From Syntrophus aciditrophicus (lineage in GTDB: Bacteria; Desulfobacterota; Syntrophia; Syntrophales; UBA5619): 32,852 bases of DNA. This document shows positions 14,042 to 27,603 of the stretch, piece after piece (position 1 is the first letter of the stretch; each line of letters begins with the position of its first letter). The position numbers were made by a program, and so were the translations under genes. Below the pieces are notes generated by a model. That model was not told the origin of the DNA. It did not search any database and was given only the letters and a program-made list of their open reading frames with translations. The stretch lies in NCBI GenBank assembly GCA_020722315.1, contig DYLD01000010.1, forward strand, positions 1 through 32,852. Direction: 5' to 3'.

Positions 14042-15814
14042 ATGGCGAAGGTGGCAGGTTTGGATCCAAGAAAGTATGCAGACTGGCAAATTGCGGAAGA
14101 GGCGGAAAAGAAGATGCCGACGCCCGATGAGTGGCGGGAGAAGCTCGGCCTGAAAAAGGACGAGATGATTCCGATGGGCAAACTCGGGAAACTCGATTAC
14201 ATGAAGATCCTTGACCGTTTGAAAAACAAGAAGGATGGAAAGTATATCGAGGTTACCGCAATCACCCCGACACCGCTCGGTGAGGGCAAAACGACGACTG
14301 TTATGGGGTTGATTGAAGGGCTCGGCAAGAGGAAGCAGAATGTCGGAGGTTGCATCCGTCAGCCGTCCGGCGGCCCGACGATGAATATAAAGGGTACGGC
14401 AGCAGGCGGAGGAAAGTCGCTGCTCATCCCGATGACGGAATTTTCCCTTGGCCTCACCGGGGACATCAATGACATCACCAATGCCCACAACCTGGCGATG
14501 GTCGCGCTGAACGCCCGCATGCAGCACGAAAGAAATTATGATGACGCGGAGCTTGCGAAGAGAAAGCTGAAACGTCTCGATATCGACCCGACGAATATAG
14601 AGATGGGCTGGGTCATGGACTTCTGCGCCCAGGGCTTAAGAAACATCATTATGGGCATCGGCGGGAAGATGGACGGCTTCCTGATGCAGTCGAAGTTCGG
14701 TATAACCGTCAGTTCGGAGCTTATGGCGATTCTGGCCATCGTCCGTGATTTGAAGGATCTCAGAGAGAGAATTGGGAAGATCGTTGTCGCCTATGATAAG
14801 AAGGGCAAGCCGGTAACGACCGAGGATCTTGAGGTAGCCGGTGCGATGACCGCCTGGATGCGCAATACGCTCAATCCCACATTGATGAGCACGGTGGAGT
14901 ACCAGCCATGTATGGTTCATGCCGGTCCGTTTGCGAATATCGCCGTCGGCCAGTCTTCGGTGATCGGGGACCGCATCGGTCTGAAGATGTTCGATTACCA
15001 CGTGACCGAAAGCGGTTTTGCCGCCGATATCGGGTTCGAGAAATTCTGGAACGTGAAATGCAGGGCGAGTGGATTGACTCCGAATGTGTCCGTCCTGACC
15101 GCCACGATCAGGGCGCTGAAAATGCACGGCGGCGGTCCCACCGTTGTCGCCGGGCGTCCACTGCCGGCTGAATACACGAAAGAAAATCTCAAACTTCTTG
15201 AGAAGGGCGTCGAGAACATGATTCATATGATCGGCGTCATCAAGAAATCGGGAATCAATCCGGTTGTCTGCATCAATTCGTTCCATACCGATACGAAGGC
15301 TGAAATCGCGATGGTGCGCAAATACGCCGAGCAGGCAGGGGCCCGTTGCGCGGTTTCGGAGCACTGGCTGAAAGGCGGAGACGGCGCGCTCGAGCTGGCC
15401 GATGCGGTTATGGATGCCTGTAAGGATAAGGTAAAGTTTGAGTATCTCTATCCGCTCGAAATGCCGTTGCGGCAGAGAGTGGACAAGATCGCAAAAGAGG
15501 TTTACGGGGCAGACGGGGTTTCCTGGGCGCCTGAAGCCGAGGCCAAGGCAAAGAAATTCGAGGCCGATCCGTCGCTGAAGGATTTCAGCACGATGATGGT
15601 CAAAACCCATCTGAGTCTTAGCCATGACCCGAAGATCAAGGGCGTGCCGAAGGGTTGGACGCTGCCGATCCGCGATGTCTTGATTTTCGCGGGGGCGAAG
15701 TTCCTCTGCCCGATGGCCGGTACGATCAGCCTGATGCCGGGAACAAGCTCCGACCCGGCTTATAGAAGGGTCGATGTTGACGTAAAGACGGGGAAGGTCA
15801 AGGGTTTGTTCTAG
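14042..15814 (+). CDS. fhs: Formate-tetrahydrofolate ligase
   Basis: Joins formate to tetrahydrofolate with ATP to give 10-formyl-THF, the first folate step of the Wood-Ljungdahl methyl branch (or the last when the pathway runs oxidatively). The 590-residue protein carries the P-loop [11 protein letters not shown] at 76-86, followed by IRQPSGGPT and GTAAGGG. Several stretches (RQPSx[22 protein letters not shown], KGVPxG, and a C-terminus ending KGLF) look closer to the synthetase domain of eukaryotic C1-THF synthase, as I remember it, than to the classical clostridial enzyme (REPSLGP). The start is fixed by AAGGAGA just upstream of the ATG. It stands alone with its own promoter and terminator; folD is not adjacent. 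Confidence 0.95.
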
Positions 15815-15835
15815 TCTTTTTGGGGATGATCTAAG

Positions 15836-15892
15836 AAAAAGCCCCTATTCCTCACCGTCGACCGGAGGCGGGAGAGGGGCCTTTTCTCTTTA
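15836..15892 (+). terminator. Rho-independent terminator after fhs
   Basis: AAAAAGCCCCT (15836-15846) can pair with AGGGGCCTTTT (15875-15885), with further pairing inside the arm, followed by a T-rich tail (CTTTTCTCTTT). It lies about 20 bases past the fhs stop. Confidence 0.7.
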
Positions 15893-15914
15893 ATCAACCG
15901 CTCATTAACCGATA

Positions 15915-16106
15915 GAGACCTTGGAAAAATGCTGCCTGAAGCGCAAATTTATTGATTTTTCGGGGTACCCCGCCGTCGCAGCCAAGGCTCTAAAGGCGTT
16001 AAGAACGCGAACTATCCCAGAGCGTTTAGCCTTTGAAGCCTTGAGCGAGACGCTGCGGGGTCGAAAAAGATTTATGAGCGCGAAGGCGGTGTTTTGCAAA
16101 GGTCTC
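15915..16106 (+). mobile_element. Palindromic MITE copy H
   Basis: A 192 bp complete family member in the same orientation as copy A, from GAGACCTTGGAAAAATGC to GCAAAGGTCTC. The flanking pentamers CGATA (15910-15914) and CCATA (16107-16111) match in four of five positions. It occupies most of the 15815-16171 gap between the fhs terminator and the NADH-module genes, and is the last intact copy in the window. Confidence 0.8.
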
Positions 16107-16171
16107 CCATAGGAAGTGAGATGACTAATATCGGCGGAAAAAAACAGAGGCCCTAGGGAGAGGAGAGCTCC

Positions 16172-16777
16172 ATGGAGCAAGGGTTATTAACACCTGAGGA
16201 TGAGGAATCCCTGAGGCAGATTGCCTCGAAGATTGAATCCTATGAAAAGGACAGGAAGAATCTTATTCCAATTCTCCAGATGATGCAGGAAACGGCCGGC
16301 TATCTTCCCAAGGAAGCGATAAAGATGGCTGCCGGGTATCTCGGTGTTGCCGAGTGCGAGGTTTATGGCGTGGCGACCTTTTACAATCAGTTCCGTTTTC
16401 ACCCGCCCGGGAAGCATCATATTAAGGTATGTATGGGGACTGCCTGCGCGGTGAAGGGCGGCGGGATTATTCTCGAAAATTTTGAAAGGAAGCTGAATAT
16501 CCATGCCGGTGAAACCACCCCCGATAGAGAGTTCAGTCTTGAGAGGGTGGCCTGTGTTGGATGCTGTGCGCTCGCGCCTGTTGCTGTTTTCGGCGAGACC
16601 AATCGGGGGCATCTGGATCAGGAGACTGTTCACGGGCATATGACGCCCAGCGCCGTGGAAGGACTTCTTGACGGAATTGCAATCGAAAAACAGATGAAAG
16701 AGCGGGTTCTTAAGCGGATGGAAATGGAGAAACAAATTGAAGAAAGGGTAGGCAACGTTGATGAATCGGATGGGTAA
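16172..16777 (+). CDS. NuoE/HydC-like [2Fe-2S] subunit of an NADH-oxidising module
   Basis: Small thioredoxin-like [2Fe-2S] electron-transfer subunit of the NuoE (24 kDa) family, found in complex I, bifurcating hydrogenases and NAD-linked formate dehydrogenases. The 201-residue product has a helical N-terminus to about residue 80, then the cluster pattern Cys87, Cys92, Cys128 and Cys132 (CMGTAC and CVGCC). A charged Lys/Glu/Met-rich tail extends past residue 168, beyond the usual domain. The ATG has GGAGAGGAG upstream. Its end overlaps the NuoF-like start by 17 bases, so the two are co-translated. It probably passes electrons between the flavin subunit and a partner. Confidence 0.9.
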   Translation: MEQGLLTPEDEESLRQIASKIESYEKDRKNLIPILQMMQETAGYLPKEAIKMAAGYLGVAECEVYGVATFYNQFRFHPPGKHHIKVCMGTACAVKGGGIILENFERKLNIHAGETTPDREFSLERVACVGCCALAPVAVFGETNRGHLDQETVHGHMTPSAVEGLLDGIAIEKQMKERVLKRMEMEKQIEERVGNVDESDG

Positions 16778-18731
16778 TAAAGACCCCGATCAGGTCTTCG
16801 ATGTCATTTATAAAGAGGCTGAGAGGCGCAACAACGAATTCCTTGCCGACCCGGCTCCCAAAATACACCTCGGTATGGCGACCTGTTGCGTTGCTTCAGG
16901 GGCCCTGGAAACCAAAAAGGGATTTGAGGAGGCATTTGCAGAATACCATGTCGAGGCGCGCATTCATACAGTGGGATGCATGGGGCATTGTTACGCGGGG
17001 CCTTTTGTCATTATAGACCATCCGGCTTCAGGATTCCCGCCGATTATGTATAATCAGGTGGATGCGGGCAAGGCAAGGATGCTTGTAAAATCCTTTTTGG
17101 TGGATGGGGATCCGCAGCTTGAGTATGTCTACGGGGCGATGCAGGAAAACGATATGCTCCCGTCGGTCATGGAGTTTTCCCGATTCAACAAAGAAAAACG
17201 TGTGATCCTGGAAAAATGCGGGGTTATTGATCCGGAAGACATCTATGACTACATTGCGCACGGCGGATATTCAAGTCTTGTCAAGGCGTTGAAACTCCAG
17301 CCTGAGGCAGTCATCCAAGAGATTCAGAAATCGGGCCTGCGGGGAAGAGGGGGGGCCGGATTTCCTACAGGGAGAAAATGGGAGTTTGCCAGGCAAGCCC
17401 CGGGTCAGGAAAAGGTTGTCATCTGTAATGCGGATGAGGGTGATCCCGGCGCCTATATGGACAGGTTGATTCTGGAGAGCAATCCCCATCAGGTCATCGA
17501 AGGTCTGGCGATTGCGGCGCATGCCGTCGGCGCGAGGAAGGCGGTCATTTATGTGCGTGCGGAATATCCGCTTGCCGTTAAAACCGTGACAAAGGCGATC
17601 CATCAGGCAACCCGGCTTGGGCTTTTGGGCCGGCACATTCTGGGGACCGGCTTTGATCTGGAAATTGATGTATTTAGGGGATCCGGCGCGTTTGTCTGCG
17701 GCGAGGAGACAGCCCTGATCCAGTCCATTGAAGGGTACAGGGGCATGCCCCAGCACCGTCCGCCCTATCCGGCCATAAAGGGCCTGTTCGGCTATCCGAC
17801 GGTCATTAACAATGTAAAGACACTGGCATCCGTAACCCCCATCATCGATCACGGGGCCGACTGGTACAGGCAGATCGGCACCGAAAATACTCCGGGCACG
17901 GCGATCTTTTCCGTCGTCGGCAATGTAGTTCACGCGGGACTCGTAGAGATACCGATGGGGGTGACTTTAAGGAGCCTCATCTTCGATATCTGCGGCGGAA
18001 TTCCAAACAACAAAAAATTTAAGGCCGTTCAGATAGGCGGGCCGTCCGGCGGCTGTCTGAGTGAAGAGTTTCTGGATACGCCGATCGATTTCGATTCGTT
18101 GACGGCAACCGGGGCCATGATGGGATCTGGCGGGATGGTGGTTATGGATGAGAATTCCTGCATGGTGGAGGTTTCCCGTTATTTTCTTGATTTTACCCAG
18201 AAGGAGTCCTGCGGGAAGTGTACGTTCTGCAGGGTTGGAACCCACCATCTCTTGAAAATTCTGGAAAGGATAACCAAAGGAGAAGGCCGGGACGGCGATA
18301 TTGAACTATTAGAGACGCTGGCAAGGGATATCAAAGCCGGTTCCCTCTGCGGACTGGGGAAGACAGCCCCAAACCCCGTTCTGACCTCGATCCGATATTT
18401 CCGCAAGGAATATGAGGCCCATATCTATGAAAAGAGATGTCCGGCCCTGATGTGTCGCTCGATGATCGGGTATTATATTGATCTGGAGAAATGCGCGCGG
18501 GGCTGTGATGCCTGTGTCGCTGTCTGCCCGGTGGACGCGATATTTACGACCAGAAATCGAAAGAAGGGAATCGATCAGCAGCTCTGTGTAAAATGCGGCG
18601 AGTGCATGGCTGCATGTCCGCCGCAGTATGACGCGGTTCGGAGAGTATCTCCTCCGAGTCTTGTTCCCTATGTGGAGAAACCGCCGCAGGAAGAAAAGGA
18701 GAAGGCAGATGGCGAAATTTCTGGTGGATAA
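16761..18731 (+). CDS. NuoF/HydB-like NADH-binding flavoprotein
   Basis: FMN- and NADH-binding iron-sulfur subunit, 656 residues. Domains in order: an N-terminal thioredoxin-like [2Fe-2S] domain (cysteines near 42, 73 and 77); the NuoF core with the FMN/NADH motif LRGRGGAGFPTGRKW (193-207) and NADEGDPGAYMDR (223-235); the SLBB domain; the [4Fe-4S] motif SCGKCTFCRVGT near 481 with its fourth cysteine in SLCGLG; and a C-terminal two-cluster ferredoxin (CARGCDACVAVCP near 577 and CVKCGECMAACP near 611). Extra N- and C-terminal domains like these are typical of HydB/HndC and bifurcating formate dehydrogenase subunits rather than complex I NuoF. The ATG at 16761 is chosen for its AGG at good spacing; a TTG lies one codon earlier. 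Confidence 0.93.
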   Translation: MNRMGNKDPDQVFDVIYKEAERRNNEFLADPAPKIHLGMATCCVASGALETKKGFEEAFAEYHVEARIHTVGCMGHCYAGPFVIIDHPASGFPPIMYNQVDAGKARMLVKSFLVDGDPQLEYVYGAMQENDMLPSVMEFSRFNKEKRVILEKCGVIDPEDIYDYIAHGGYSSLVKALKLQPEAVIQEIQKSGLRGRGGAGFPTGRKWEFARQAPGQEKVVICNADEGDPGAYMDRLILESNPHQVIEGLAIAAHAVGARKAVIYVRAEYPLAVKTVTKAIHQATRLGLLGRHILGTGFDLEIDVFRGSGAFVCGEETALIQSIEGYRGMPQHRPPYPAIKGLFGYPTVINNVKTLASVTPIIDHGADWYRQIGTENTPGTAIFSVVGNVVHAGLVEIPMGVTLRSLIFDICGGIPNNKKFKAVQIGGPSGGCLSEEFLDTPIDFDSLTATGAMMGSGGMVVMDENSCMVEVSRYFLDFTQKESCGKCTFCRVGTHHLLKILERITKGEGRDGDIELLETLARDIKAGSLCGLGKTAPNPVLTSIRYFRKEYEAHIYEKRCPALMCRSMIGYYIDLEKCARGCDACVAVCPVDAIFTTRNRKKGIDQQLCVKCGECMAACPPQYDAVRRVSPPSLVPYVEKPPQEEKEKADGEISGG

Positions 18732-19407
18732 CCGGGAAATTGAAGCAGACGAAGGGACTATTCTGCTGCAGGCCTGTCTGGATCACGGCATCTATATCCC
18801 GAATCTGTGCTTTGTAAAAGGCATGGATCACCCGTCTGCATCATGCCGGATGTGTTTTGTCGAGGTCGAGGGCGAACGGCAGCCGGTGCCTTCGTGTACA
18901 GTGAAGGTTAAGGACGGTATCGTCGTGAAAACCGATACCCCTCAGGTCAGGCAGTTGCAACGAACGGCCTTTCAACTTTTGATGTCCGTTCATGATGTGG
19001 ATTGTGCGAATTGTCCGTCCAATAAAAAATGTGAGCTGCAGCGAATTGCAAAATTTTTAAAGGCGCCTTTAAAGCCCAGAGCTTTGGAAATATACCTGAA
19101 AGAACCCCGGATAGACGAAAGCCATCCCTTTTTGGATTACTATCCGAATCGCTGTGTCCTCTGCGGTCGCTGCGTTTACACGTGCGGCCAAAGAAACGCC
19201 CAGTCTTTTCTGGCCTTTTCAAAAAGGGGATTTAATACGGTTATCAGCTTCTACGGCGCGGCGGACCTTTCCACACTCGATTGTCCGAACTGTCATGCCT
19301 GTGTGGATGTCTGTCCTGTCGGCGCCCTTGTCTTAAAGGAGCCTGCAAAAAGAACTGTTCCTGCTTCCTCTGATTTGGGCCTGACCCCGAAACCGCTCGA
19401 GGTTTGA
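18709..19407 (+). CDS. NuoG/HoxU-like iron-sulfur subunit
   Basis: Electron-transfer subunit equivalent to the N-terminal quarter of NuoG, or to HoxU, 232 residues. Four cluster sites are visible: a plant-ferredoxin-type [2Fe-2S] (Cys34, Cys46, Cys49, Cys63); the His-Cys3 [4Fe-4S] (His95, Cys99, Cys102, Cys108); and two ferredoxin clusters (Cys149, 152, 155, 159 and Cys192, 195, 198, 202). It ends before any molybdopterin or H-cluster domain, so it only wires electrons. The ATG at 18709 lies inside the end of the preceding gene and has GGAG upstream; longer upstream readings would be basic junk. With its two neighbours it forms a NADH:acceptor module whose catalytic partner is not in the window. 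Confidence 0.92.
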   Translation: MAKFLVDNREIEADEGTILLQACLDHGIYIPNLCFVKGMDHPSASCRMCFVEVEGERQPVPSCTVKVKDGIVVKTDTPQVRQLQRTAFQLLMSVHDVDCANCPSNKKCELQRIAKFLKAPLKPRALEIYLKEPRIDESHPFLDYYPNRCVLCGRCVYTCGQRNAQSFLAFSKRGFNTVISFYGAADLSTLDCPNCHACVDVCPVGALVLKEPAKRTVPASSDLGLTPKPLEV

Positions 19408-19585: not shown

Positions 19586-19689
19586 AAAAAAGAAGATATG
19601 GCTTGCAAAAGTCTCTCTCCCACATGTTGGTGTAGTGGGTTGAAATAGTTAAGTTCTTTATGGAAATTCTTTAGAAAGGAGGATCGCTG

Positions 19690-19851
19690 ATGTCTGAGAA
19701 GTTGGAAGACAAGGTTTCTTTCGACGGCAAAAAAGTCAAGGTATTGGGGCCGGATTATGAGCCGGGCAAACCGGACAAAAAATTTGATTGGCGGGCTGAA
19801 TTGAGAAACAGGCAAGAGATGCTGGCCTATCTTAAGGTGGGGGTGCGGTGA
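19690..19851 (+). CDS. Small protein of 53 residues upstream of acsD
   Basis: An open frame of 53 codons with an ATG at 19690 and a strong ribosome site (AAAGGAGG about 7 bases upstream), ending TGA at 19849-19851. The product begins MSEKLEDKVSFDGKKVKVLG and ends MLAYLKVGVR. It is highly charged (rich in Lys, Glu and Asp), has no cysteine, signal peptide or membrane segment, and contains a PDYEPGKPDKKFDW stretch in the middle. I do not recognise it. It is 83 bases before acsD on the same strand, so it is probably the first gene of the acs operon. It could be a small regulator or assembly factor, or a leader peptide. Confidence 0.65.
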   Translation: MSEKLEDKVSFDGKKVKVLGPDYEPGKPDKKFDWRAELRNRQEMLAYLKVGVR

Positions 19852-19934: not shown

Positions 19935-20873
19935 ATGGCGTTTGAAATACCGAAGATAGCATATACCGGAAAAGTAAGGAAAATTGTTTTAGGTAAGGGG
20001 CCTAAGGCGGTTACGGTCGGAGGAGAGGAATCTTATCCTTTTCACCTCTTTGAAGGGGCGATGCCCCATGTTCCCCGTATTGCGATTGAGGTTTACGACA
20101 GTGAGCCAGAAGAGTGGGCGGATGCAGCGATTGAGCCTTACAAGGATGTTCTAAAGGATCCTGTCGCGTGGGCCAAAAAGGCCGTTGATGTGTACAAGGC
20201 CGATATGATCTGTCTGCAGTTGGCGAGTACCGATCCCAACGCCCAGAACAGCCCGCCGGAGCAGGCTGCCCAAACCGCCAAAAAGGTTGCGTCCGCGGTT
20301 GATGTTCCCGTTATTGTTTATGGAAGCGCCAATCAGGAAAAGGATGCGGAGGTAATGAGAAAAGTGGCCGAGGTGTGTGACGGAATGAGCCTTATACTCG
20401 GCCCGGTACAGGACCAGAATTTCAAGCAGATAGGCGCCGCTGCAATCGGATATGGGCATACCGTCTCCGCTAATACCCCGATAGATATCAATCTTGCCAA
20501 ACAGCTGAATGTTCTTTTGGGCAATCTGGGCGTTCAGGACGAAAAACTCATTATCGATCCGACGACCGGCGGGCTCGGTTATGGAATCGAATACTGCTAT
20601 TCCGTCAGCGAGCGGATACGCATTGCTGCGGTATCACAGCAGGATGAGAGGCTGCAGTTTCCGATTATAAACAACCTCGCGAAGGAAGTCTGGAAGACGA
20701 AAGAAGCGAAAACGGGCGATACCGATCTGATGGGCAAGGGAGCGAAAAGAGGCATAATCATGGAAGCCATCACGGCGTTTCTGCTTGCCCTGGCCGGGGC
20801 CGATGTGTTGATCATGCGGCATCCTGAAGCGATCGGGATTGTCAGGGAGATGATAAGCGATTTAACAACGTAA
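19935..20873 (+). CDS. acsD: Corrinoid iron-sulfur protein small subunit AcsD
   Basis: Small (delta, CdhD-type) subunit of the corrinoid/iron-sulfur protein that carries the methyl group between methyl-THF and acetyl-CoA synthase. The 312-residue TIM-barrel protein matches the family in length and has characteristic segments such as DPTTGGLGYGIEYCYS near residue 210 and LALAGADVLIMRHPEA near 285. No iron-sulfur motif is present, as expected because the cluster sits in the large subunit. AAGGAGG precedes the ATG. It leads the acsD-acsA-acsB-acsC-acsE series, well separated from the large subunit gene acsC. Confidence 0.94.
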   Translation: MAFEIPKIAYTGKVRKIVLGKGPKAVTVGGEESYPFHLFEGAMPHVPRIAIEVYDSEPEEWADAAIEPYKDVLKDPVAWAKKAVDVYKADMICLQLASTDPNAQNSPPEQAAQTAKKVASAVDVPVIVYGSANQEKDAEVMRKVAEVCDGMSLILGPVQDQNFKQIGAAAIGYGHTVSANTPIDINLAKQLNVLLGNLGVQDEKLIIDPTTGGLGYGIEYCYSVSERIRIAAVSQQDERLQFPIINNLAKEVWKTKEAKTGDTDLMGKGAKRGIIMEAITAFLLALAGADVLIMRHPEAIGIVREMISDLTT

Positions 20874-20917: not shown

Positions 20918-22873
20918 ATGGCAGATGTATTTGAGAAGAGTATTGAACCGGCATCGTTGCAGATGATCAAGAAGGCTGCCGATGACAAAGTTCAGGTGGT
21001 GTTTGACCGGGCGGCGAGCCTGAAGCCGTGTCCTATAGGGGCGGATGGCGACTGCTGCAAGAACTGCGCGATGGGGCCGTGCCGCGTACCGGCCCCGAAA
21101 GACAAGACCAAACCAAGGCCGACGGGTATATGCGGTGCGACGGCGGCGACGATTTCCGCGCGTAATTTTGCCCGGATGGTTGCCGCTGGGGCGGCCGCCC
21201 ATTCCGACCATGGTCGGGGCGAGGCGGAGATGTTTCTGATGGCCGCCAGGGGAGAGGTATCCGAATTCAAGGTCAAGGACGAGCAGAAGCTCTACCAGGT
21301 GGCGATGGATCTGGGTGTTGAGATAGGGGATAGACCGCTTCAGGAGATTGCGATTGAAGTCGGCGAAAAGGCGATTGCGGAATTCGGCCGTCAGCATGGC
21401 GAGGGTGCCTTTGCCCAGCGGGCGCCGGAGAAAAGGAAGGAATTATGGAGAAAAGTCGGCGTTTTTCCGAGGGGGGTCGACCGCGAGATTGTCGAGACCA
21501 TGCACCGCACCCATATAGGTGTTGATCAGGACTACCGCCATATCTTGATGCAGGCGGCCCGTGCCGCGCTGGGTGACGGCTGGGGTGGCTCGATGATTGC
21601 GACGGAGCTTCAGGATATCCTTCTGGGAGATCCGGTGCCGCTGGCGGGCGAGATCAATCTCGGGGTTTTGAAGAAAGATTATGTCAACATTATCGTTCAC
21701 GGTCATGAGCCTCTTCTTCCCGAGGTTTTGGTTGTTCAGGCTCAGGATCCGGAGTTTCAGAAAGCGGCTGAGGCCGTAGGCGCCAAGGGGATCAATCTGG
21801 CCGGAATCTGCTGCACCGCCAACGAGATCCTGATGCGTCATGGGATCCCGATTGCCGGGAATTTCCTGCAGCAGGAACTGGCGCTTGTTACCGGCGCCGT
21901 TGAGCTTATGACGGTCGACGTCCAGTGCATCATGCAGGCCTTGGCCCCTGTTGCGAAGAACTACCACACCCTCCTTGTTACAACCTCGCCGAAGGCGAAG
22001 ATTGACGGCGCCCTGCATTTGGAGTTTGACGATCATAACGCCACCAAGATCGCAAGAGAAATGATCAAGATGGCCATCGACAATTTCAAGAACAGAAAGC
22101 CCGAGCATGTGGAGATACCGACTCACAAGTGCGATCAGGTTGTCGGCTTCACGTATGAGACAATCAACTATCTGTTAGGCGGCATGTTCCGCGCCTCGTA
22201 CCATCCGCTGAATGACAACATCATCAACGGGCGGATCCGCGGCGTTGCGGGAGTCGTCGGCTGCAGCAATGCCCGCGTCACCCATAACAAGCCCAACCTG
22301 GAGCTGATCAAGGAGCTGATCAAGAATGATGTGCTTGTTCTGGTCACCGGTTGCGCGGCCCATGTCGCGGGGGAGGCCGGCCTCTTGAGACCTGAAGCGG
22401 CGAAGGAGTTTGCCGGCGAGGGATTGGCTTCCGTCTGCGAGGCGGTCGGGATTCCTCCGGTTCTTCATATGGGCTCCTGCGTCGACAACAGCAGAATCTT
22501 GATGGCTGCGACTGCGATCGTCAAGGCCGGCGGGCTGGGCAATGATATCAGCGACCTTCCCGCGGCCGGCGCCTCGCTCGAGTGGATGAGCGAGAAGGCC
22601 GTTTCGATCGGCGAATATTTTGTCGCCTCCGGCGTTTCCACGGTGTTTGGAGTAACCTGGCCGACACTCGGTTCGGAGGAGACGACGAAATTCCTGTTTG
22701 AGGAGTATGAGGATATCCTGAAGGCAAAGTGGTATTTCGAGCCCGACCCGATCAAGGCCGCCAAGTGGATGATCGACCATATCGACAAGAAGAGGAAGGA
22801 GCTCGGCATCGATAAGGCGCGCGAGAGAGTCCTCTTCGATATGGCCAAGCGCCGTGAACTCGAAGTGGCTTGA
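20918..22873 (+). CDS. acsA: Carbon monoxide dehydrogenase catalytic subunit (CODH/ACS)
   Basis: Interconverts CO2 and CO at a nickel-iron-sulfur C-cluster and, in the CODH/ACS complex, feeds CO to AcsB. The 651-residue protein has the B/D-cluster cysteines near the N-terminus (Cys38, 46, 47, 50, 55 and 72 in CPIGADGDCCKNCAMGPC and GICG). It also has all the C-cluster regions: the histidine in VHGHEP, then cysteines in GICCTANE, VDVQCIMQ, VVGCSN, VTGCAAHVAG and MGSCVDNSR. A complete set implies an active enzyme. GGGAGGAG precedes the ATG. Also called cooS in other systems; position next to acsB supports the acetyl-CoA role. Confidence 0.96.
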   Translation: MADVFEKSIEPASLQMIKKAADDKVQVVFDRAASLKPCPIGADGDCCKNCAMGPCRVPAPKDKTKPRPTGICGATAATISARNFARMVAAGAAAHSDHGRGEAEMFLMAARGEVSEFKVKDEQKLYQVAMDLGVEIGDRPLQEIAIEVGEKAIAEFGRQHGEGAFAQRAPEKRKELWRKVGVFPRGVDREIVETMHRTHIGVDQDYRHILMQAARAALGDGWGGSMIATELQDILLGDPVPLAGEINLGVLKKDYVNIIVHGHEPLLPEVLVVQAQDPEFQKAAEAVGAKGINLAGICCTANEILMRHGIPIAGNFLQQELALVTGAVELMTVDVQCIMQALAPVAKNYHTLLVTTSPKAKIDGALHLEFDDHNATKIAREMIKMAIDNFKNRKPEHVEIPTHKCDQVVGFTYETINYLLGGMFRASYHPLNDNIINGRIRGVAGVVGCSNARVTHNKPNLELIKELIKNDVLVLVTGCAAHVAGEAGLLRPEAAKEFAGEGLASVCEAVGIPPVLHMGSCVDNSRILMAATAIVKAGGLGNDISDLPAAGASLEWMSEKAVSIGEYFVASGVSTVFGVTWPTLGSEETTKFLFEEYEDILKAKWYFEPDPIKAAKWMIDHIDKKRKELGIDKARERVLFDMAKRRELEVA

Positions 22874-22956: not shown

Positions 22957-25170
22957 GTGTCCAAAATCATTGCAGCCGCAGCTATACGAGGGGCTCATAA
23001 AATAATTGAAAGGGCGGAGAAGGAATACGACCAGGCCCTGAAAAAGTGGGGGCCTGAGCAGGAAGTCGGTTTTCCCGATACCGCCTATTACTTGCCGACG
23101 ATTTATGCCATTCTCGGCGTTCCCGTGAAACAATTGGGCGACATGAAACCGGTTCTGGAACGCTGCCGTAGTTTGCTGCCGCCGTTGGTCAAGGAAACCA
23201 ATGCGCTTCCGTATCTTGCGCCGGCACTGGACGCCGGCATGGCGACGTTGTTTGCCGAAGAGATCATCGAGGCTATCCGTTATCTCGAACAACCCAATTT
23301 TTATACCAAACAGGAGGATATTCTTCCCGATAACATTTGGCTCGGAGCGGCCAATGATGTCATCTTCCGGAAGAGGGGAGTTGAATTCGTCGACGGCACC
23401 GCCCCCGGCTTTGCGGCGATTGTAGGGGCTGCGCCCTCGCCGGAGATTGCGGCGAAAATCGCGCTCGAATTGCAGGAAAAGAACCTCTATGTCTTCATGG
23501 CAGCCGAACATGAAGGGAAGCGTTTCTCGGAGCAGCTTGTCGAAGCGGGCGTTGAAATAGGCTGGCCGACGCGTCTGGTGTCGTTCGGCCCTGATATTTC
23601 ATCGGCCGTCTTTGCGATCGGATTTGCGGCCCGCGTCGCGATGTCGTTCGGCGGCATCAAGCCGGGTGACTACCGCAAGAATCTTCTCTATAATAAAGAC
23701 CGTACTTTCGCGTTTGTCATGCCGATGGGTTTTGTCACCGACGAATGGTACGCCAACGCCGCCGGGGCTATCAATTTCGGGTTCCCGACGATCGCCGACA
23801 CGCCGATCCCGGAGATTCTGCCGACGGGCATTTGCACGTACGAGCATGTTGTCTCCAATATCCCCCATGACAAGATCGTCGCGAAGGCGATAGAGGTCAG
23901 GGGTCTCAAGGTCAATGTGGCAGAGGTACCGATTCCTGTTGCATACGGCCCCGCCTTCGAAGGAGAGCGGGTCCGCGGGGATGATATCTTTCTGGAGATG
24001 GGCGGCGGACGCACCCATGCGGTCGAATATGTCACGACCAGGCGTCTTGAGGAGGTCGAGGACGGCAAGGTCGAGATGATCGGCCCCGATTTGGATACCA
24101 TTACAAAAACACCGGGGAGATTGCCTCTGGCAATCCTCGTTGAAGTGGCCGGCAGGAAGATGCAGGACGACTTCGAGCCGATTCTCGAGAGACAGGTCCA
24201 CCATCTGATCAACTACGCGCAGGGCGTCATGCATATCGGTCAGCGCGACATCGCGTGGATCCGCGTCGGCAAGGGCGCCGTTCAGAAAGGTTTTAAACTT
24301 ACCGATCTTGGCAAGATTCTCCACGCAAAATTCCATCAGGATTTCGGCACGATCTTCGACAAGGTTCAGGTCAAGATCATCACCGATGAAAAAATGGTTG
24401 AAGACGTGCTCGTCAAGGCCAGGGAGGCTTACGCAAAGAGGGATGCAAGAATCGAGGGCATGACCGACGAAACCACGGATCCGTTCTATTCCTGCACGCT
24501 CTGTCAGTCATTCGCTCCGAACCATGTCTGCATCGTCAGCCCCGAGAGGACCGGGCTTTGCGGCGCTTACAACTGGATGGACTGCAAAGCCTCCTATGAG
24601 ATTAACCCGACCGGTCCCAACCAGCCCGTGCCGAAGGGAGAGATCCTGGATCCAGTACTTGGGCAGTGGACCGGCACGAACGCCTTTGCCGTAAAATCAT
24701 CGCACGGCAATTACGATCGCGTCAGTATGTACAGCATGATGCATGACCCGATGACGACATGTGGTTGCATGGAGTGCATCGCCGCGGTGCTTCCGTCCTG
24801 CAACGGCTTCATGACCGTCAACCGCGACTATATGGGGATGACCCCCTGCGGCATGAAGTTTTCGACGCTGGCCGGAGCGGTCGGCGGCGGTGTGCAGACG
24901 CCCGGATTTTTGGGCCACAGCAAATACAACCTGATCCAGAGGAAGTTTTTGAAGGCGGATGGTGGTCTGATGCGTATGGTCTGGATGCCGAAGATGCTCA
25001 AGGACGAGTACTACGATCGTCTGAAGATCCGCGGCGAAGAGATGGGGATGCCTGATTTTGTCGACCGGATTGCCGATGAAACCATAGGCACGACGGAAGA
25101 GGAAATCCTTCCGTTCCTGCAGGAAAAGAAACATCCCGCGCTGGAAATGTCGTCGGTTTTGGAGCTGTAA
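22957..25170 (+). CDS. acsB: Acetyl-CoA synthase AcsB (CODH/ACS beta subunit)
   Basis: Assembles acetyl-CoA from CO, a methyl group from the corrinoid protein and CoA at the nickel A-cluster, or cleaves it in the reverse direction. The 737-residue length shows that the N-terminal CODH-docking domain, absent from archaeal forms, is present. The A-cluster residues are all there: Cys513, Cys516, Cys525 and Cys535 for the [4Fe-4S] cluster, and Cys602-Gly-Cys604 for the two nickel sites. Each sits exactly seven residues beyond the Moorella positions. The start is GTG at 22957 with AAGGAGG upstream. A strong hairpin follows the stop before acsC. Confidence 0.96.
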   Translation: MSKIIAAAAIRGAHKIIERAEKEYDQALKKWGPEQEVGFPDTAYYLPTIYAILGVPVKQLGDMKPVLERCRSLLPPLVKETNALPYLAPALDAGMATLFAEEIIEAIRYLEQPNFYTKQEDILPDNIWLGAANDVIFRKRGVEFVDGTAPGFAAIVGAAPSPEIAAKIALELQEKNLYVFMAAEHEGKRFSEQLVEAGVEIGWPTRLVSFGPDISSAVFAIGFAARVAMSFGGIKPGDYRKNLLYNKDRTFAFVMPMGFVTDEWYANAAGAINFGFPTIADTPIPEILPTGICTYEHVVSNIPHDKIVAKAIEVRGLKVNVAEVPIPVAYGPAFEGERVRGDDIFLEMGGGRTHAVEYVTTRRLEEVEDGKVEMIGPDLDTITKTPGRLPLAILVEVAGRKMQDDFEPILERQVHHLINYAQGVMHIGQRDIAWIRVGKGAVQKGFKLTDLGKILHAKFHQDFGTIFDKVQVKIITDEKMVEDVLVKAREAYAKRDARIEGMTDETTDPFYSCTLCQSFAPNHVCIVSPERTGLCGAYNWMDCKASYEINPTGPNQPVPKGEILDPVLGQWTGTNAFAVKSSHGNYDRVSMYSMMHDPMTTCGCMECIAAVLPSCNGFMTVNRDYMGMTPCGMKFSTLAGAVGGGVQTPGFLGHSKYNLIQRKFLKADGGLMRMVWMPKMLKDEYYDRLKIRGEEMGMPDFVDRIADETIGTTEEEILPFLQEKKHPALEMSSVLEL

Positions 25171-25290: not shown

Positions 25291-26643
25291 ATGGCTCTTA
25301 CAGGAATTCAGATTTTCAAGCTGCTGCCGAAAACGAATTGCAAGGAGTGCGGACAGCCGACCTGCCTTGCCTTTGCGATGAACCTGGCAGCCGGCAAGGC
25401 CGAGCTGAGCCGGTGCCCGTATGTTTCGGATGAGGCAAGGGCCTTGCTTTCAGAGGCGTCCGCACCGCCGATACGGCCCGTTACGATGGGAACGGGCGAC
25501 AACAAGGTTACCGTAGGCGGCGAGACCGTCATGTTCCGTCACGAGAAAACCTTCGTCAATAAGCCGGCAGTGGCCGTGCTGATCAGCGACACGATGGCCG
25601 AAGACGACGTGTCCGGGAGGATCAAGCGCTATAATTCATTAAGATATGAGTGGATCGGCCTGCTTCTAAGGGCTGAAATGATCGCAATCAAGAATGAGTC
25701 CAATGATGCAGCCAAGTTTGAAGCTCTTGTCAAAAGGGTTATGGGCGAGACCGATGCGATTCCGATCCTTATCAGCGAGAACATCGATGCTCTGAAGGCG
25801 GCTCTGGTTGTCTCGGCCGAGCGCGTGCCGTTGATCTACGCGGCCACCGAGAAGAATTACGAGGCAATGGCTGGTTTGGCCAAGGAGTTCAAGTGTCCTC
25901 TGACCGCGAAAGCGGACGGTCTCGCCAAGCTGTCGGAATTGACGGATAAGATTGTTGCGCTGGATGTGAAGGATATTATTGCGGACAGCGGCGCCAGAGG
26001 AGTCAGGAGGGCTTTTGAAGATATGACGTTCTTAAGAAGGGCCGCGTTGATTCAGAAGAACCGCTCCCTCGGTTTTTCGCCGATTACGTTTCCCTGCGAG
26101 ATGACGGACAATCCTCTGAAGGAAACGCTTATTGCCTCGATGTTTATCGCGAAGTATGCCGGCATCGTTGTCCTTTCCGACTTCCAGGGAGAAAGCCTTT
26201 TCCCGCTTCTTGTCGAAAGGCTCAACATCTACACCGACCCGCAGCGGCCGATGATGATGAAGGAAGGGATTTATCCGATTGGCAACCCGACCGAGGATTC
26301 CCCAGTCGCAATCACAACCAACTTTGCGCTGACCTACTTTATCGTATCCGGCGAAATTGAGGCCAGTCGTGTGCCGACGTGGCTTTTGGTTATGGAGACT
26401 GAAGGTCTTTCCGTTCTTACCGCCTGGGCCGCCGGAAAGTTCGTCGGCGACGCGATGGGGATATTTATCAAGAAGTCCGGGATAACTGACAAGATCAAAC
26501 ATCGCAAGATCATTATCCCCGGCTACGTAGCCTCGGTAAGCGGCGATCTGGAAGAGGAACTCGGCCCGGATTGGGAGGTCAAGATTGGTCCTCGCGAAGC
26601 CGCGCACCTTGCCGCGTTTCTTAAAATGGAAACCGCCGGTTAA
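25291..26643 (+). CDS. acsC: Corrinoid iron-sulfur protein large subunit AcsC
   Basis: Large (gamma, CdhE-type) subunit of the corrinoid/iron-sulfur protein. It binds the cobamide that carries the methyl group and a low-potential [4Fe-4S] cluster that reactivates it. The 450-residue protein begins with the cluster motif Cys17, Cys20, Cys25 and Cys42 (TNCKECGQPTC and SRCPY), the same positions as in Moorella. A TIM barrel follows, then a C-terminal Rossmann-like cobamide-binding domain from about residue 325. GAGAGGAG precedes the ATG at 25291. The hairpin upstream suggests that its expression may differ from acsB. Confidence 0.95.
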   Translation: MALTGIQIFKLLPKTNCKECGQPTCLAFAMNLAAGKAELSRCPYVSDEARALLSEASAPPIRPVTMGTGDNKVTVGGETVMFRHEKTFVNKPAVAVLISDTMAEDDVSGRIKRYNSLRYEWIGLLLRAEMIAIKNESNDAAKFEALVKRVMGETDAIPILISENIDALKAALVVSAERVPLIYAATEKNYEAMAGLAKEFKCPLTAKADGLAKLSELTDKIVALDVKDIIADSGARGVRRAFEDMTFLRRAALIQKNRSLGFSPITFPCEMTDNPLKETLIASMFIAKYAGIVVLSDFQGESLFPLLVERLNIYTDPQRPMMMKEGIYPIGNPTEDSPVAITTNFALTYFIVSGEIEASRVPTWLLVMETEGLSVLTAWAAGKFVGDAMGIFIKKSGITDKIKHRKIIIPGYVASVSGDLEEELGPDWEVKIGPREAAHLAAFLKMETAG

Positions 26644-26700: not shown

Positions 26701-27603
26701 ATGATTCGCATTGGTGAAAGCCTCAATGTTATGGGGAAGGTAATAGGCGCGGCAATGAAACAGAGGGATCCCGGGCCGATCCGCCAGATGGCGATAGATG
26801 AGGAAAAGGCCGGCGTTGATTATATAGACATCAACATGGGTCCGGCAAGAAAAGACCCCGTGATTCTCGGTGAATGGCTTGTAAAGACGGTTCAGGAGGT
26901 GACAGATCTGCCTTTATATATTGATACAGTCAGCCCGGAAGCGGTAGAAGGCGCTCTCAGGGTTTATCAAAACAGGAAAGGAAAGGCCGTTATCAATTCG
27001 ATCATGGCCCGTCCCGAAAGTATCGAGGCGAAGATGCCCCTCTGCAAAAAATATGACGCCGGCATGGTGGCCCTTCTCTGGGGGCCGACTGGACTGCCGA
27101 GGGATGCGGATGAACGCGGCGCCCTCGCCGCCGAACTGATGCAGAAAGCTGAAGAGTACGGGATCGCCCCTGAAGATATCTGGATCGATCCTATCGTTAC
27201 GCCATGCAATACCCCCTTAAGCAACGTGCAGGTTCCCGCCGTTGTGGAGTTCATGAAGATGTTTCGGGACCTTCAGGAAACAGCGCCCGGTTTGAAGTCG
27301 ACATGCGGCCTTTCCAATGTTTCGAACGGTGCGCCGAACGACCTGCGTCCGATCATCAATCAGACCTACCTTGTCATGCTGAAACGCTACGGGATGACAA
27401 GCGCTATTGTCGACCCCTTTGATGACGGAATGAAACTGTTCGCCGCGGGCGGCCGTCCCGATCTCGAGGAGGTCATCTACAAGGCGATGGATAAAGAGCC
27501 TATAGACAGGGCCTCTCTCACCAAAGAACAGCTGGATTACGTAAAGACCGCGGAGGTTCTGATGGGATACAGGCTATACTCCGATCACTGGCTGGAGCTA
27601 TAA
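26701..27603 (+). CDS. acsE: Methyl-THF:corrinoid protein methyltransferase AcsE
   Basis: Transfers the methyl group from 5-methyl-THF to the cobalt of the corrinoid protein, linking the folate branch to acetyl-CoA synthesis. The 300-residue protein is a pterin-binding TIM barrel, with DINMGPARKD near residue 44 (folate site), YIDTVSPEA near 76, VINSIMARPE near 100 and GLSNVSNGAPNDLRP near 202. It is about 38 residues longer than the 262-residue Moorella enzyme. Much of the excess is an insertion near residues 240-280 before the shared C-terminal segment. ATAAGGAGGAG precedes the ATG. It closes the acs gene run. Confidence 0.92.
   Translation: MIRIGESLNVMGKVIGAAMKQRDPGPIRQMAIDEEKAGVDYIDINMGPARKDPVILGEWLVKTVQEVTDLPLYIDTVSPEAVEGALRVYQNRKGKAVINSIMARPESIEAKMPLCKKYDAGMVALLWGPTGLPRDADERGALAAELMQKAEEYGIAPEDIWIDPIVTPCNTPLSNVQVPAVVEFMKMFRDLQETAPGLKSTCGLSNVSNGAPNDLRPIINQTYLVMLKRYGMTSAIVDPFDDGMKLFAAGGRPDLEEVIYKAMDKEPIDRASLTKEQLDYVKTAEVLMGYRLYSDHWLEL

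Follow-up and report, generated by a model that had tools for sequence, protein, structure and literature searches.

The acs operon and its first gene

The window, i.e., the whole stretch of DNA that was analysed (32,852 nt), contains a Wood-Ljungdahl operon with genes in the order SP, acsD, cooS, acsB, acsC, acsE-like, hdrA-like, mvhD-like (FlpD), metV-like and metF, where SP designates the 53-amino acid product encoded just upstream of acsD. The SP gene (19690-19851, + strand) opens with an ATG at 19690, comprises 53 codons and closes with a TGA stop at 19849-19851, its product being a shortened family member without the C-terminal tail described below. A Shine-Dalgarno sequence (AAAGGAGG), read directly at 19675-19682 on the + strand, lies 7 nt 5' of the ATG, and GGAGG-type sites were also noted 5' of the start in nine other truncated SP copies. 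A previous sequence-only reading of this DNA had described a 53-codon frame with a strong ribosome site before acsD, which was borne out, and a start at 19678, which falls inside the ribosome site and was replaced by the ATG at 19690. Its description of the product as charged, cysteine-free and Pro/Gly-rich in the centre agrees with the sequence, which contains no cysteine, approximately 43% D, E, K and R residues as counted by eye, and the central segment GPDYEPGKPDKKFDW.

In the window, SP occupies the position next to acsD that is typical of its family, with 83 nt between the SP stop and the start of acsD (19935-20873), which encodes the corrinoid iron-sulfur protein (CFeSP) small subunit (PF03599, 1.5e-49; NCBIfam NF003376, delta subunit). 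The following genes, all on the + strand as is acsD, encode the CO dehydrogenase catalytic subunit (cooS/acsA, 20918-22873; TIGR01702, 4.8e-192), acetyl-CoA synthase (acsB, 22957-25170; NF040764), the CFeSP large subunit (acsC, 25291-26643; NF003195) and an acsE-like methyltetrahydrofolate:corrinoid methyltransferase (26701-27603; PF00809, NF005719).

A NuoE/NuoF/NuoG-like trio (16172-19407) lies directly 5' of SP-acsD in the window and is itself preceded by formate-THF ligase (region 14042-19407). Two Desantisbacteria-labelled loci (L227 and L232) have the trio 5' of SP-acsD as well, L063 has it from the second gene onwards, and NuoE-like and NuoF-like genes were seen 3' of acsD in L181, L214, L229 and L231. 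The spacer between truncated SP and acsD, 90-110 nt in length, was alike in six relatives (L004, L006, L007, L008, L009 and L014; CAACGCTTCAAATTC...) and may form a structured or regulatory element. No match resulted from a search against plasmids.

Conservation and selection

Open frames of 53 codons are common by chance, and it is conservation rather than length that identifies the SP frame as a real gene. Matches to SP were found in 13 of 61 genomes (the window's own and 60 relatives); 12 of these had E values of 5e-7 or better, each in a frame directly 5' of acsD, and the other, in G038, was rejected as a chance match inside a long unrelated frame. Within the window's family, SP was present in 11 of 21 genomes, exactly those with full-length AcsD of at least 63% identity. 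Had relatives sharing the acs order lacked the frame, this would have counted against a gene according to the sequence-only reading; instead, the frame was present in 11 of 11 window-family genomes with full AcsD of the window's type.

The test for purifying selection proposed in the same reading also favoured a gene. Thus, comparison of the window copy with its nearest relative (L002) gave dS of 1.13, dN of 0.103 and dN/dS of 0.091, and the median pN/pS of ten truncated copies was 0.24 in frame, the two shifted frames giving 0.96 and 2.1. Similarly, stops in these shifted frames numbered 23 and 26 over the ten related SP copies, none of which contained a stop in the SP frame. Ratios for the few very close pairs were 0.4-0.8, each resting on a handful of changes. 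Purifying selection on SP, including the short form of the window, was clear from these results. A chance open frame, which the ready occurrence of frames of this length might have suggested, was refuted by conservation across families together with frame-specific selection, and its probability is negligible.

Distribution of the SP family

Two profiles were used, the first (A1) matching 53 of 395 genomes of the phylum, with G195 doubtful among them, and an improved one of 44 rows (A2) matching 57 of 395. AcsD was present in all 57 of these and in 254 of the 395 genomes overall. The window SP matched A2 with an E value of 2.9e-21. A scan of contigs from named genomes revealed 191 relatives, and the figures given here for this set rest on the 80 that were listed, the labels of which include Syntrophaceae, Syntrophorhabdaceae, Zymogenus, Dehalococcoidia/Dehalococcoidales, Spirochaetes, Poribacteria, Desantisbacteria, Myxococcota and others; these labels are depositors' names for metagenome-assembled genomes. 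Chance matches in long or unrelated frames (L013, L019, L020, L061, L113 and G195) and repeats of the same places (L003, L005, L010, L011, L012 and L049) were excluded from counts.

The window protein aligned with the family over residues 1-53 and contained the core motif FDGxKVKVLGxxYExGKPxxxxxWRxKLxxRxxMLxYLK. Residues invariant in A1 were D12, V16, L19, G20, E24, G26, K27, P28, K30, W34, R35, R41, M44, Y47, L48, K49 and R53, and no conserved cysteine or other obvious metal-ligand motif was found across the family. In two genomes of the window's own family (G014 and G010, loci L017 and L018), acsD grouped with Dehalococcoidia copies and both full-length SP and cooS were present, a probable case of operon acquisition by horizontal transfer.

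Full-length members end in RYWYSxxWYGSEKRKxxA, of which RYWYSxxWYGSEKRK is near-invariant, and this tail is the best-conserved portion of SP. Among 116 distinct members, 106 had the GSE[KR] tail, 9 ended in GVR and one (L180) had another end. The window SP stops after GVR and, judged from its sequence, belongs to the family by its core and not by its tail. On a FastTree AcsD tree (207 rows, with 57 of 204 inner branches weakly supported and L169 scored as SP-less though its genome carries SP beside cooS), the ten truncated loci, i.e., the window and nine relatives, formed one clade nested among full-length loci. The window SP is therefore a derived short form, and the tail was lost once, in the window copy and these nine relatives. 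Readthrough of the stop codon was considered and rejected: the ten truncated copies all end with a TGA at one and the same position, which in five is immediately followed by another stop, and tail-like sequence is absent downstream. A profile match that ran through the TGA of the window was taken as chance.

Linkage and fusion of SP to AcsD

Gene order was compared in two partly overlapping sets of loci. In the first, 51 of 64 SP members were separate genes just 5' of acsD on the same strand, 12 were fused to the C-terminus of AcsD, and one (L060) lay 5' of cooS with acsD elsewhere. The gap between SP and acsD was -1 to 232 nt in 50 of the 51 separate cases, L058 being the 51st, which was read from the locus. 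In the second set (the 80 listed named loci of 191), SP was directly upstream of acsD in 74, between acsD and cooS in L224 and L228, fused to the AcsD C-terminus in L233 and L240, and followed by the contig end in L180 and L249. SP also stayed with acsD in loci where cooS was not adjacent to acsD (L181, L201, L214, L229 and L231).

The 12 fusions of the first set shared a layout of AcsD (approximately 310 amino acids), a variable region of approximately 100-140 amino acids, and lastly SP, the tail of which forms the very C-terminus, and the fusion amounted to one change on the FastTree AcsD tree. In two fusions that were scanned, the Pfam and NCBIfam models of AcsD ended before the SP domain. 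A different fusion, of AcsD through a linker to CooS in what is apparently one open frame of approximately 1120-1150 amino acids, was noted in L057, L059 (f76), G180/L065 and L200, with SP separate and upstream.

The position 5' of acsD and the strong ribosome site in the window would suit the other role that had been suggested from sequence, that of a regulatory leader peptide or attenuator heading the acs operon. This suggestion is contradicted by conservation of the amino acid sequence across many families and several phylum labels, by the displaced copies after acsD (L224 and L228) or before cooS (L060) and by the occurrence of SP as an AcsD domain; in addition, the window yielded no Rfam element. 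A leader peptide is thus very improbable.

Association of SP with cooS

Among 151 Chloroflexota genomes, AcsD was found in 27 and SP in 3. The closer type of AcsD (at least 55% identity) was present in 11 of these genomes, where it formed one Dehalococcoidia clade. The three genomes of this clade with SP had cooS beside acsD, and the eight without SP also had no CooS match anywhere, acsB following acsD. On an IQ-TREE AcsD tree this joint pattern represented two changes, because L017 and L018, which carry both SP and cooS, fall between two cooS-less groups. In the other 16 Chloroflexota genomes AcsD was more distant, SP was found in none and CooS in 13.

SP is dispensable for CODH/ACS in general; it was absent from 197 of the 254 AcsD-bearing genomes of the phylum, and cooS came right after acsD despite the lack of SP in 28 SP-less loci and in 35 others with an Ala/Lys-rich AcsD tail. 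CooS was searched for in 59 genome or locus handles, most of the remaining handles showing cooS beside acsD in the locus. The search included 25 SP-bearing handles for which cooS was unseen in the locus or the locus was unfetched, and a CooS match was found in 21 of these. The four without a match came from three distinct genomes: G157, G268 (with G701 apparently one and the same genome) and G317. The listed completeness of G317 is 99%, and in at least this genome the acsD contig stops shortly after acsD. CooS frames with one stop inside the match were observed in several SP-less genomes (G272, G243, G510, G492 and G299).

Fusion and adjacency would require contact with AcsD only, and could be accounted for by a protein that regulates or protects the enzyme, e.g., by inhibiting it, by switching it in response to redox state or CO or by tagging CFeSP for localisation, and that is seated on AcsD without bridging to CODH. 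Loss of the tail in one clade fits such a modulatory role. However, SP and cooS are jointly absent from Dehalococcoidia in which acsD and acsB are retained, suggesting that the link is not confined to AcsD, and no sensor motif is visible in SP; a role of this kind is accordingly rated as quite unlikely.

Structure prediction

An AlphaFold2 model of SP alone (60 rows) had a mean pLDDT of 71 and consisted of a hairpin (residues 5-9 and 15-19), short helices (34-37, 41-51 and 53-56) and a remaining tail that was extended. In the model of one natural AcsD-SP fusion, the AcsD barrel was confident and superimposed on the CFeSP small subunit 2h9a_B with a TM-score of 0.94 by target length, whereas the SP domain was of low confidence (pLDDT blocks of approximately 57-71, the last two 41 and 36). 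No trustworthy docking of SP on AcsD was obtained in this fusion model, and no interface was predicted.

Proposed role of SP

Gene linkage, fusion and co-occurrence indicate that SP is probably a partner of the CODH/ACS machinery. The sequence-only reading had suggested that the product might be a small partner, either of CODH/ACS or of the corrinoid protein, and at the level of linkage this is supported by the near-constant acsD adjacency, the 12 AcsD fusions and the joint absence with cooS in Dehalococcoidia. We propose, with a probability of about one half, that SP is an accessory subunit of the carbonyl branch of the Wood-Ljungdahl machinery, which would bind AcsD, the small subunit of CFeSP, and help to retain CFeSP at the CODH/ACS core or to position it there. 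Its occurrence as an AcsD domain in some lineages would place its action at AcsD, and the shared lack of SP and cooS in Dehalococcoidia would connect it with CODH as well. Binding to AcsD is the firmer part of this proposal, and SP may, with less assurance, also touch CODH/ACS and help to dock CFeSP. A link to both AcsD and CODH would make SP a short clamp or tether, whose N-terminal hairpin and short helix would contact one partner while the conserved basic tail (YGSEKRK) would contact the second; the tail-less SP of the window lineage would be a reduced clamp. Against this proposal count the loss of the best-conserved portion of SP in the window clade, the two tree changes on which the correlation with cooS depends, the dispensability of SP for CODH/ACS in general and the SP-bearing genomes that gave no CooS match. 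In the AlphaFold3 model described in PMC12289521, the CFeSP beta-subunit contacts the N-terminal domain of ACS, a domain that keeps its place on CODH, and this contact could be the place where a clamp on AcsD works.

A more specific form of this proposal, held tentatively and at somewhat less than even odds, is that SP would be a third CFeSP subunit that staples CFeSP to CODH/ACS and marks a class of bacterial supercomplex across Desulfobacterota, Dehalococcoidia and Spirochaetes-, Poribacteria-, Desantisbacteria- and Myxococcota-labelled genomes, with the tail as an anchor that the window lineage lacks.

The main rival to a docking subunit is an assembly or maturation factor that would bind nascent AcsD, CFeSP or CODH while these fold, acquire cofactors or assemble, and would not belong to the working complex. 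The same linkage evidence fits such a factor, as do the small size, charge and mostly extended model of SP and its absence from many lineages, and stop-start coupling with acsD (gaps of -1 in L033 and L041 and of 0 in L064 and L067) would suit a co-translational helper. On the other hand, permanent fusion, as seen with AcsD in 12 loci, is commoner among standing subunits or domains than among transient helpers, and SP has no conserved cysteine or other obvious metal-ligand motif. An assembly factor is thus considered unlikely, if less so than a regulator, and the accessory docking subunit is preferred.

Comparison with known systems

The C-terminus of AcsD bears an extra piece in other lineages as well. 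Thus, many AcsD proteins of other Desulfobacterota carry an Ala/Lys/Glu-rich C-terminal extension of approximately 200 amino acids. The SP motif was absent from these extensions, and profile comparison of the linker of SP fusions with the Ala/Lys-rich tails gave only a match to a duplicate row (L049, a duplicate of a fusion that was contained in the comparison set) and one linker's low-complexity match. No relation of these tails to SP or to the linker of its fusions was thus detected. The 42 rows scored as coil (L122-L163 and others, including L169) represent such extensions and often end in ..DKLLxxLNRIHRR, a short segment that looks conserved.

Database searches likewise gave SP no named relative. 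At curated cut-offs, the window SP matched 0 families of Pfam-A and NCBIfam, and the 44 A2 members gave only stray matches (best E values of 0.003 to 0.08), none in more than four members. The SP profile matched nothing significant among PDB chain sequences, the best match (E value of 0.15) being to an unrelated protein, and SP is therefore apparently absent from the solved CODH/ACS and CFeSP entries. A PDB fold search with the SP model gave no match with an E value below about 0.9, and no description of SP was found in the titles, abstracts and passages covered by a search of an open-access library. SP is thus an unnamed part of a well-known system, for which neither a family entry nor a solved relative was found, and the example suggests that gene calling may omit an acs-operon component in many uncultivated anaerobes.

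Few carbon-fixing enzymes are as well studied or, arguably, as old as CODH/ACS and the corrinoid protein. AcsD (PF03599; PDB 2h9a_B, 2ycl_B and 9fzy_E) is the gene neighbour of SP and in one clade carries SP as a C-terminal domain, although a sequence relation between the AcsD barrel and SP was not detectable. A conserved small protein that is naturally fused to a subunit of the corrinoid protein, and that has no solved relative, offers a directly testable handle on docking. By its genetic associations SP belongs with the CODH/ACS-CFeSP complex, represented by PDB 9fzy and by a study of C. hydrogenoformans (PMC12289521), according to which docking of the mobile corrinoid protein is an active question.
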